Part shown: one piece after another, positions 19,301-59,235 of the stretch
Position numbering within the stretch: position 1 is the first letter of the stretch
How the letters are laid out: the number at the start of each line of letters is the position of its first letter
DNA from: Brevibacillus sp.
GTDB taxonomy: Bacteria > Bacillota > Bacilli > Brevibacillales > Brevibacillaceae
NCBI GenBank assembly: GCA_017656235.1
Contig: JACDOF010000001.1
Location: 1,054,001-1,118,000 of the forward strand
Direction: 5' to 3'
DNA length: 64,000 bases
Program-made: the position numbers and the translations under genes
Notes under the pieces: generated by a model
Told to the model about the DNA's origin: nothing
The model's database searches: none
The model's input: the letters and a program-made list of their open reading frames with translations, nothing else

Positions 19301-20250
19301 GCGACTTCTTCCCTCTTTAGGGGATGAAGGGCTCCGTCATATATCCCTTCTACCGTTCCCGCTCCACCGGAACGACTGAGCACGATATAACGTTCGAAAG
19401 CCCCCTGCTGGATCAGCTTGCCCAGCATTGGCCGACGGACTGCTTCCGCGAGATCAAACCCATGTGCCGAACATATAACGGATACACCGGCATGAATGGC
19501 CTCCCAGATCGCCTCGCTATCTTCCGCCCTGCCTATTTCGTCGACAATCACCACCTCAGGTGACATCGAGCGGATCATCATCATCATCCCAAGCGCTTTC
19601 GGGCAGGCATCCAGAACATCGGTTCGCGGCCCGACGTCTCGCTGCGGCACGCCGTTGAGACATCCTGCAATCTCTGAACGCTCGTCCACAATTGACACTT
19701 TGCGGCTGGAGGCATGCTGATTGCCGTAACTGATCGAACGGGCCAAATCCCGCAAGAGTGTCGTTTTGCCGCACTGGGGCGGAGAAATGATCAGGGTGTT
19801 CAGCACCTTTCCTCGTTCAAACAGAAACGGCAGCACTTTTTGGGCAACCCCCCGTTTCTCACGGGCAATGCGAATGTTAAAGCTGGTAACCTCGCGAATC
19901 CCCTTCACCTCGCCTCTCTCCAGGACTACCTTGCCTGCCAGTCCGATGCGATGTCCTCCCACGACGGTGATGTATCCCCGCTTCAGCTCTTCCTCAAGCG
20001 CATACAGTGAGTGCTGGCTGATTTGGTTAAGCAGTTTGACTGCATGCTCCTCCGTAAAAATCCAGCCCTGGCGGGAGTTGGCCGTCAGTTGGCCCTTTGG
20101 CGTAACGTAACTGGCCTGCTGGCCGTAGCGTATTTCCAACGGCTGGTTCTGCCGAAGCCTGACTTCTTCAATGCTTTCCAACACTGCCTCCGGCAGAATG
20201 GACAGGACACTGCGGACGGGAGCCGGTAGGATGGCGAGTATTTCTTTCAC
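19288..20250 (-). CDS. spoIIIAA: stage III sporulation protein AA, secretion-type ATPase
   Basis: The 320-residue protein is a hexameric-type ATPase with Walker A PPQCGKTTLLRDL near residue 155 and Walker B VVIVDEIGRAED near 228. It is related to type II/IV secretion ATPases and probably powers the SpoIIIA channel. GTG 20250 (GAGGTGG upstream) is preferred over GTG 20271. The better Shine-Dalgarno of the longer form lies within or upstream of the expected transcription start of the sigma-E promoter at 20286-20316, so it would not be in the mRNA. Confidence 0.95.
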   Translation of the reverse strand: MKEILAILPAPVRSVLSILPEAVLESIEEVRLRQNQPLEIRYGQQASYVTPKGQLTANSRQGWIFTEEHAVKLLNQISQHSLYALEEELKRGYITVVGGHRIGLAGKVVLERGEVKGIREVTSFNIRIAREKRGVAQKVLPFLFERGKVLNTLIISPPQCGKTTLLRDLARSISYGNQHASSRKVSIVDERSEIAGCLNGVPQRDVGPRTDVLDACPKALGMMMMIRSMSPEVVIVDEIGRAEDSEAIWEAIHAGVSVICSAHGFDLAEAVRRPMLGKLIQQGAFERYIVLSRSGGAGTVEGIYDGALHPLKREEVAWSS

Positions 20251-51602: not shown

Positions 51603-51747
51603 GTCCGGTCTCCCATATGTACTGCTCTTTATCTGATAGCGTCATACTTCATATTGTAACAAATCTCACGTCCGGTGAGTACCAGCGATGAGGAGATTTC
51701 TTCCTTTTTTCAGGTTCTTGCAGGTTGCAAACAACGTGTCGTGAACA

Positions 51748-51794
51748 CGAGTGGGGCGTTTTTCGCGCTCGCTGGCGAAAAATCGCCCCACTCG
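51748..51794. repeat. long imperfect palindrome of unknown origin
   Basis: CGAGTGGGGCGTTTTTCGC (51748-51766) pairs with GCGAAAAATCGCCCCACTCG (51775-51794) with a single bulged base and an 8-base loop, giving 19 pairs. There is no T-run on either side. It lies in the 340-base gap between pxpA and the M1 peptidase. Confidence 0.8.
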
Positions 51795-51817
51795 TCCCAA
51801 ATGATTTTGCCCTCGCC

Positions 51818-51840
51818 CCCGCGGATCGTTTCGCCGCGGG
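51818..51840. repeat. second, GC-rich palindrome in the same gap
   Basis: CCCGCGG (51818-51824) and CCGCGGG (51834-51840) form a 7-bp stem with a 9-base loop, 23 bases from the first palindrome. The two stems together may belong to one structured element. The rest of the gap up to pxpA shows no gene that I would call. Confidence 0.6.
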
Positions 51841-51941
51841 CAGTCGCACATCTTTGCATGCCAGGCAACAGTTCGCGCAGGACTTTTGTCCCCTTCGGTA
51901 CACTTTACCTGCACGCTGAAAGGGCTGCCAGGTCCTTGTCT

Positions 51942-57438: not shown

Positions 57439-58542
57439 TCAGCGGGGATCAAGCCCAAAACGGATCGGAGTCGGTGGTTCAAAGTCTGTGCTGCTGTTTC
57501 TCGTGGCGTAAACCAGATGCAGATAGGTCGTAAGCTGTTCCGCACGTGGTGAAAACCCCAGTTCCCGCAGTCCCTTGATCAAGATCGAACGATCAGCGTA
57601 GTACTCGTCTTCGATCCTCTCCACGTCCGCCACACGGCCTTCCGCGCGCAGTTGTCGCAAATGGTGCTCGCGATCCTTTGTGTCGGGGAACATCAGATCG
57701 GCGATGACCAACCTGCCGTTCGATTTTAGCACCCGCTCAAACTCGGCCAACGCCAGCAGTTTCTGTTCATCGGTCAAGTGGTGCATGGCGTAGCTGGTGA
57801 CCACAAAGTCAAAGGAGCGATCAAGATAGGGAATAGCCAATAAATTGCCCCGTTTCGTCTCCGCCTTTGGATTTTTTTGCTTGCACCTCTTTAACATTTC
57901 GGCTGATTGATCCAGCGCACATATCATTCGGCAGCGGTCAACCAAGCGGTTGGCCAGATTTCCGGTCCCCGTGCCCGCATCCAAACCGACCTCGTGCGGC
58001 AGCGGTTCAAGCACCTCTACCACCCGATCCAACACCTTGTCGTAATCTTCATGCGGATTAAATCCGCTGTCACCCCGTTTAACCAGCTCGTCATAATGGG
58101 CGGCTTGCTGATCGAAGTTCCAACGGTCCACCCACTCTTGTCTGGTCTGTCTTAGCCGCCTGTTGGCTTCAGCCAGCTCATAGAGAGAGGACGGGTCAAG
58201 CGAACACTGCTGTTTGAGCCGCTCGATCATCTGTTCCAGTGTCTGGATCACCGCCTTTAACTCGACCCAGCGGTCATACATACAGGCGAGCTGCAGCTCC
58301 AGGTAAGCAAGGACCTCTTCACGGCCGTGCTCAAGCTGCGACAGCAGCTGGCGGATTGCCTCGATCGGCACCCCCACCTCACGCAGGGCAATAATCGTCT
58401 GCAGCCGCCACGCATCTTGTTCGTTGAAGCGGCGGTAGCCGGACTCCGGATCCTTACATGGCGAAATCAGCCCTTTCTCTTCGTAAAAGCGGATGGCGCG
58501 GGGTGTCGTCTGCAAGTATTCGGCCAGTTCCTTGATCTTCAT
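57439..58542 (-). CDS. MerR-family regulator fused to a SAM-dependent methyltransferase
   Basis: The first roughly 75 residues are a MerR winged helix (MKIKELAEYLQTTPRAIRFYEE). A coiled helix (to about 145) follows, then a class I methyltransferase with VGLDAGTGTGNLANRLVD near residue 186 and VTSYAMHHLTDEQKLLALAEF near 250. Its own promoter at 58575-58605 has the 19-base spacer typical of MerR control and a dyad in it. Target and ligand are unknown. ATG 58542 follows GGAGG at 6 bases; GTG 58545 is in frame. Confidence 0.85.
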   Translation of the reverse strand: MKIKELAEYLQTTPRAIRFYEEKGLISPCKDPESGYRRFNEQDAWRLQTIIALREVGVPIEAIRQLLSQLEHGREEVLAYLELQLACMYDRWVELKAVIQTLEQMIERLKQQCSLDPSSLYELAEANRRLRQTRQEWVDRWNFDQQAAHYDELVKRGDSGFNPHEDYDKVLDRVVEVLEPLPHEVGLDAGTGTGNLANRLVDRCRMICALDQSAEMLKRCKQKNPKAETKRGNLLAIPYLDRSFDFVVTSYAMHHLTDEQKLLALAEFERVLKSNGRLVIADLMFPDTKDREHHLRQLRAEGRVADVERIEDEYYADRSILIKGLRELGFSPRAEQLTTYLHLVYATRNSSTDFEPPTPIRFGLDPR

Positions 58543-58574
58543 CACGTACCTCCTTCCTTCATGGTGTTGATTAG

Positions 58575-58605
58575 ATTGTAAACTCTTCCGTTACGTAAAA
58601 GTAAA
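58575..58605 (-). promoter_or_regulatory. MerR-type promoter and operator of the fusion gene
   Basis: On the minus strand TTTACT (58600-58605) and TACAAT (58575-58580) are spaced by 19 bases, longer than usual and typical of MerR-regulated promoters. The spacer holds the imperfect dyad ACTTTTACGTAACGGAAGAGT (ends at 58582 and 58602; only 20 bases quoted in parts: ACTTTTACGT and AACGGAAGAG). Autoregulation is likely. Confidence 0.65.
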
Positions 58606-58611
58606 GAAATG

Positions 58612-58637
58612 AAAAAAATCCGGAGCGAAGCTCCGGA
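58612..58637 (-). terminator. strong terminator ending the structured element
   Basis: TCCGGAGC (58619-58626) and GCTCCGGA (58630-58637) form an 8-bp stem with a 3-base loop, followed on the minus strand by seven T. It lies upstream of the MerR promoter, so it ends transcripts from the structured element at 58639-58743. Confidence 0.9.
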
Positions 58638-58638
58638 C

Positions 58639-58743
58639 CAGACTGCAGACAAACCCCGTTTTCCATGAAAGGGTGCCTATTGTCCGTGACCAACAACGCG
58701 AGCAGGACAATAGACCCATTCGGAACCCTTTGTCTGCGGTCTG
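58639..58743 (-). ncRNA. candidate structured non-coding RNA of unknown family
   Basis: On either strand the outer arms CAGACTGCAGACAAA (58639-58653) and TTTGTCTGCGGTCTG (58729-58743) are near-perfect complements. Inside, GGGT-GC-CTATTGTCC (58671-58685) pairs with GGACAATAG-ACCC (58705-58717), with a 19-base loop. A second ACCC at 58725-58728 could compete for GGGT, so two folds are possible. On the minus strand it is followed at once by a strong terminator and preceded by the terminator of the CBS gene. No promoter is visible for the minus-strand transcript. I do not recognise the family. Confidence 0.55.
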
Positions 58744-58748
58744 ACGTC

Positions 58749-58779
58749 AAAAAAAGAAACGGCGCAGGTCGGCCGTTTC
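58749..58779 (-). terminator. terminator after the CBS-domain gene
   Basis: GAAACGGC (58756-58763) and GCCGTTTC (58772-58779) form an 8-bp stem, followed on the minus strand by seven T (complement of 58749-58755). Confidence 0.85.
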
Positions 58780-58794
58780 CTGTTGAATATCAAA

Positions 58795-59235
58795 TCAGGT
58801 GCGATTCGGTTCGGAGATTTGGTACAGTGCCTCGCTCGCTTCATCTTGGTGTGCCTGACGCACAGCCATGTCCGCAAGCGCGACGATGCCGACCAGTTTT
58901 CCGTTTTCCACTACAGGGAGACGGCGAATTTGGTGCTGGGCCATAATTTTGGCCGCTTCATCAACCGTCATATCCGGACGGCCAAGCACAATATCGCGGG
59001 TCATGACCTCGCTTACCGCAGCGGAACCTTCGCGTTTTTCCGCGATGCCGCGAATGACGATGTCACGGTCGGTGATAATGCCGATCACATCGTTTTTCTC
59101 ATCGACGACCGGGATCACGCCTACGTTTAAGTCCCGCATTTTGACGGCAACTTCGTACACGTTGTCCTTCAAGGTGACCGTTGCCACGTCCCTGGTCATG
59201 ATTTGCTGCAGGGTGCGATTTTCAGCCTTTGCCAT
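58795..59235 (-). CDS. two-CBS-domain protein (YhcV-like)
   Basis: The 146-residue protein has two CBS repeats (about residues 8-62 and 73-130), each with the GVIPVVDEKNDVIGIITDRDI or RRLPVVENGKLVGIVALADM pattern. It probably binds an adenosine nucleotide and acts as a sensor, as in YhcV. No partner gene. It ends in a terminator at 58749-58779. Confidence 0.88.
   Translation of the reverse strand: MAKAENRTLQQIMTRDVATVTLKDNVYEVAVKMRDLNVGVIPVVDEKNDVIGIITDRDIVIRGIAEKREGSAAVSEVMTRDIVLGRPDMTVDEAAKIMAQHQIRRLPVVENGKLVGIVALADMAVRQAHQDEASEALYQISEPNRT

Follow-up and report, generated by a model that had tools for sequence, protein, structure and literature searches.

Segment 58639-58743 of the window (the whole 64,000-nucleotide stretch of Brevibacillus sp. 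DNA analyzed here) is very probably a non-autonomous MITE of the IS1182 type that inserted beside an intrinsic terminator between a CBS-domain protein gene and a MerR-like regulator gene, possibly by a hairpin-duplicating transposition in trans, and later lost its core. Taken by itself this copy is a decayed and ordinary member of its family, which is the more interesting object. The features of the locus, together with a second decayed copy elsewhere in the window, are as follows.

57439-58545, minus strand: MerR-like regulator whose C-terminal part resembles a methyltransferase, located downstream of the element (ORF; domain call by eye)
58617-58639, minus strand: terminator hairpin TCCGGAGCTTCGCTCCGGA with T7, adjoining the left TIR (terminator scan; hairpin-TIR spacing as in related copies)
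58639-58743, no strand assigned: very probable internally deleted IS1182-type MITE, with 105 of about 255 bp remaining (TIRs at both ends; both halves match dispersed copies)
58639-58653, plus strand: left TIR CAGACTGCAGACAAA, then C as in complete IS1182 left ends (0 mismatches to CAGNNTGNAGACAAA)
58677-58713, no strand assigned: inner helix CTATTGTCC/GGACAATAG with its loop (homologous to the outer portion of the full-copy stem)
58690-58691, no strand assigned: internal-deletion junction (break point of all own-genome matches; intact copies aligned)
58729-58743, minus strand: right TIR CAGACCGCAGACAAA, then GG (1 mismatch to the TIR pattern)
58754-58781, minus strand: CBS-gene terminator, flanking the element on its opposite side (terminator scan; comparison with relatives)
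58795-59235, minus strand: CBS-domain protein gene, upstream of the element (ORF; orthologues 81-90% identical in seven relatives)
51721-51918, no strand assigned: another element of this TIR superfamily, also decayed (two TIRs, each with 2 mismatches; match to full copies, C1:1105806-1105919)

The nested hairpin at 58639-58743 is genuine and folds far above chance. The predicted RNA fold of 58590-58765 reaches -65.4 kcal/mol (plus-strand z -7.1, minus-strand z -5.2), a value matched by none of 200 shuffles. The initial annotation had described this structure accurately: its near-complementary 15-nt closing arms (58639-58653 and 58729-58743) pair at 14 of 15 positions, its bulged 13-bp inner hairpin consists of a perfect 9-bp helix (58677-58685/58705-58713) that extends to 13 pairs across the bulge, and the GGGT at 58671 does have two possible ACCC partners, the optimal one at 58714 (-46.0 kcal/mol) and a second at 58725 (-40.1 kcal/mol) that costs about 6 kcal/mol. 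It had also placed the segment outside both genes and between two minus-strand terminators, and a terminator scan recovered both of them (58639-58617 and 58781-58754), flanking the element. As it had noted, no sigma-70-like promoter was found at the element. The proposed span of 58612-58743 was partly right, since the element occupies 58639-58743 and the remainder takes in the neighboring terminator at 58617-58639. ORFs over the element are mechanical only; it carries no gene and thus does not encode the DDE transposase of an autonomous IS1182 element. The Rfam covariance-model scan that had been suggested gave nothing near a gathering score for the window region or for full MITE copies, and blastn against a plasmid collection found no match to the element.

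Of the origins initially considered, the transposon-derived palindrome proved to be the right one. Related sequences occur at tens of dispersed places in the genome of origin (G000; 3.6 Mb in 31 contigs), a copy number obtained by searching and to be read as a minimum. Both the left half (query 31/40-91) and the right half (92-145) match dispersed copies, and the alignments with the window copy are interrupted at query 91/92, corresponding to 58690/58691. In an intact copy on contig C4, for instance, the halves lie at 19691-19749 and 19900-19951, and the core absent from the window copy is the roughly 150 bp at 19750-19899. Since intact copies have about 150 bp more between their halves, the window copy derives from an element about 255 bp long by internal deletion. 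A full copy folds over its entire length into one long imperfect stem (fold z -6.6), of which the inner helix at 58677-58713 is, by homology, a remnant. The ends of the family share the terminal repeat CAGNNTGNAGACAAA, and the TIR pattern with up to 2 mismatches gave 775 matches versus 364 for a reversed control. The element is short (105 bp, in a family of about 255 bp), non-coding and present in many dispersed copies, as MITEs are. Copies with the same ends and different, mosaic interiors also exist: at L091, L096, L099, L103, L106 and L109 of the same genome, interiors are assembled from shared modules whose set and order vary, and the decayed copy at 51721-51918 has a shortened, mosaic interior. 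In another member of the Bacilli (G146, family f17), 70 exact CAGNNTGTAGACAAA ends were counted over the whole genome versus 0 in the reversed control.

The terminal repeat CAGNNTGNAGACAAA likewise bounds full IS1182-family insertion sequences in a genome of the same genus (G001), so that the focal MITE shares its TIRs with an autonomous element. The complete G001 elements are 1545 bp long, start with CAGATTGCAGACAAAC and, read from outside, have the right end CAGCCTGTAGACAAAG; those of a genome from another family of the same class (G048) are 1548 bp long with near-identical ends. All start with CAG and finish with CTG, their TIR being the same as, or nearly identical to, that of the MITEs, and the difference between GACAAAC at the left end and GACAAAG at the right end is common to MITEs and insertion sequences. 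The left TIR of the window copy (58639-58653) recurs as the end of the complete IS1182 copies L135, L144, L151 and L156. The transposases of the complete elements score approximately 478-492 bits against NF033551 (cut-off, 270), those of G001 reaching up to 492 bits. In the genome of origin, a draft in 31 contigs, no intact IS1182 transposase was recognized; three weak matches to NF033551 lie on one contig without TIRs, where the ORFs look, by eye, like remnants of other transposases, and the DNA of the G001 insertion sequence found no match. The window copy is probably inert, because it has lost its core, has a hairpin at the foot of one TIR only and resides in a genome without a recognizable intact IS1182 transposase.

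Elements of this family adjoin intrinsic-terminator hairpins in their own genome as well as in G001, G007, G011 and G048. A stem with a score of at least 7 ending no more than 4 nt from the TIR was found at 67 of 95 ends versus 4 of 615 random positions drawn from the same loci, which is the insertion at palindromes or hairpins expected of IS1182. Hairpin-adjoining ends made up 11/24 in the own genome, 20/26 in G011, 30/34 in G048 and 6/11 among insertion sequences; at the threshold used, a strong neighboring hairpin is lacking at about half of the own-genome ends with an exact TIR. Many copies, the best-preserved ones in particular, carry one and the same hairpin on both flanks. In 15 two-sided cases, hand-picked for a hairpin on both sides from the list of 95 ends and the own-genome copies, the flanking hairpins are direct duplicates of 16-34 bp, 12 of them perfect and 3 with one mismatch. 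The same duplication flanks five of the seven complete insertion sequences inspected (L144, L151, L136, L145 and L152), and in the last four of these the T-run after the right-hand hairpin is clearly longer than the T-run before the element. In none of these 15 picked cases or five insertion sequences was the stem-loop deleted without duplication, as in replacement of the IS1272 type. Dispersed copies with target duplications, which had been set beforehand as an observation that would speak against an RNA function, are thus what the family displays. Since copies of one identical insertion sequence, in G001 and likewise in G048, are flanked by different hairpins, the hairpin belongs to the target. 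Tandem arrays in G011, in which the MITE alternates with the same terminator hairpin (three units at L162:314-1346 and two at L167:131-831), look as if one hairpin had been hit repeatedly.

At the focal site, four relatives (G001, G007, G008 and G011) have the MerR-like gene immediately after the CBS gene, with one terminator and no element between them. The conservation in close relatives for which the initial annotation had asked is therefore lacking, and the second terminator hairpin is likewise missing from the gap in all four. The window retains the CBS terminator and has the element and the second terminator hairpin between it and the MerR gene, the hairpin adjoining the left TIR as in other copies. 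The hairpin at 58617-58639 is likely the target hairpin or its surviving copy. The target duplication that is clear in sister copies is not visible here: no second copy of this hairpin was seen at the foot of the right TIR, where the unrelated CBS terminator stands. Loss of one side, tandem ancestral terminators or a replacement event could each have left the one-sided arrangement.

A scan of GTDB for a 22-mer from the own-genome family, excluding the genome of origin, found no match, and a looser core pattern retrieved two relatives, Anoxybacillus sediminis PCH 117 (G011) and Brevibacillus sp. SYP-B805 (G007), whose core copies again adjoin terminator hairpins. Own-genome copies hardly vary in the stem and have 2 compensated pairs. 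When these are aligned with G011 copies, 98.8% of cells in 46 predicted pairs are paired, compared to 37-43% in slid controls, and 10 pairs are changed on both sides; with G007 included, 31 pairs are left, 6 of them with two-sided changes. These counts draw on few independent lineages and on a structure derived from the same alignment, and they indicate that the pairing of the stem has been kept. As the core is common to three genomes and carries compensatory stem changes, the fold of the MITE may itself be maintained. Possible causes are selection acting on the DNA fold or on an RNA, or palindrome correction by template switching.

Such compensatory core-stem changes among three genomes would also be expected if the MITE had been exapted, at least in its full copies, so that the conserved long stem acts as an RNA structure in 3′ untranslated regions, stabilizing mRNA or serving as a processing site; the duplication, moreover, leaves the element upstream of the T-tract and hence probably transcribed. 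However, the core has been lost from the window copy, copies adjoin unrelated genes in both orientations, and DNA-fold selection for transposition or template switching at a quasi-palindrome could yield the same compensation, making exaptation an unlikely, if conceivable, explanation. The hairpin-MITE-hairpin-MITE-hairpin arrays of G011 (L162 and L167) could instead suggest that the paired hairpins on the flanks travel with the element or arose by tandem duplication and are not target duplications. Yet the hairpin sequence differs from copy to copy while the element stays constant, and the identical insertion sequences of G001 and G048 carry different hairpins, which renders this reading improbable.

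The other two initial proposals were a small RNA and an attenuator-like switch. A functional RNA of either kind between the CBS and MerR genes would fit the strong fold on both strands, the minus-strand terminator directly after the element and the two alternative pairings. The lack of any Rfam match or promoter-like site, the absence of the element from the same intergenic region of four relatives and the energetic cost of the alternative pairing all argue against either form of regulation, and the repeat family already accounts for the segment; we consider such a role very improbable. Short, palindromic, intergenic and interspersed repeats also recall REP- or PATE-like elements of the IS200/IS605 (HUH) class, but true TIRs and long target duplications are present and the ends match the DDE-type IS1182. 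To our knowledge, long target duplications are not made by HUH single-strand transposition, and we see next to no chance of such an origin.

Group IIC (bacterial class C) introns insert after intrinsic-terminator hairpins. They resemble the present family in this choice of site and differ from it in lacking the TIRs and target duplications seen here. Neither the window region nor full copies gave a match to any intron RNA family and the elements are only approximately 100-400 bp long; a group IIC intron was rejected. Closer to the IS1182-type MITE favored here are IS1272 and TnSha1 of staphylococci, which belong to the IS1182 family and target hairpins, including intrinsic terminators, without a primary sequence target (PMC4923244, PMC5678879). 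In both, the target stem-loop is deleted or replaced and no target duplication remains (PMC4923244, PMC5678879), whereas the stem-loop is duplicated here and the focal element is non-coding. Duplication of the whole stem-loop, through joining to an extruded cruciform at its 5′ feet, has been drawn as a possible pathway (b) without a case (PMC5678879), and the hairpin duplications described above fit it. Like other bacterial MITEs, the family is short, non-coding, TIR-bounded, intergenic, stem-loop forming and derived from an insertion sequence (PMC10969869), and it differs in having a terminator stem-loop as target and a palindromic duplication of 16-34 bp. That review does not mention IS1182; it calls SPRITE rho-independent terminator-like (PMC10969869). 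SPRITE, BOX and RUP of Streptococcus pneumoniae are likewise interspersed structured repeats, but in the present family the terminator is part of the target and not of the element. In the open-licence literature we found no IS1182-type MITE with hairpin duplication, and long palindromic duplications may have been noticed earlier; within that scope, the behavior of the family is a new form of IS1182 hairpin targeting.

We propose that an IS1182 DDE transposase acting in trans would bind the CAGNNTGNAGACAAA ends and join them at the two feet of a cruciform formed when a terminator stem-loop is extruded. Both single strands would then be filled in by repair, placing a direct duplicate of the entire stem-loop on either side of the element, with the T-tract remaining at the distal hairpin copy. 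With the hairpin copied and not destroyed, termination would presumably persist beyond the element and the neighboring genes would be spared, the element probably joining upstream 3′ untranslated regions. Most insertions are expected to be mild because the hairpin and T-tract are kept beyond the element. The focal copy may have arrived by the same route. It is doubtful, taken as one combined proposition, that some IS1182 transposons and MITEs of Bacilli transpose by such terminator-sparing stem-loop copying and that the covarying MITE core is in addition a functional structure, either a DNA fold for mobilization or a 3′ untranslated region RNA on many transcripts.

Published IS1182 cases destroy the hairpin, and the exact duplication seen here supports a route that had previously only been sketched. 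It illustrates how a transposon could spread through gene-dense DNA and still have a terminator on its far side. In these genomes, a long folded insert may consequently precede the working terminator at many 3′ ends, and such inserts should be allowed for in the prediction of terminators and small RNAs.
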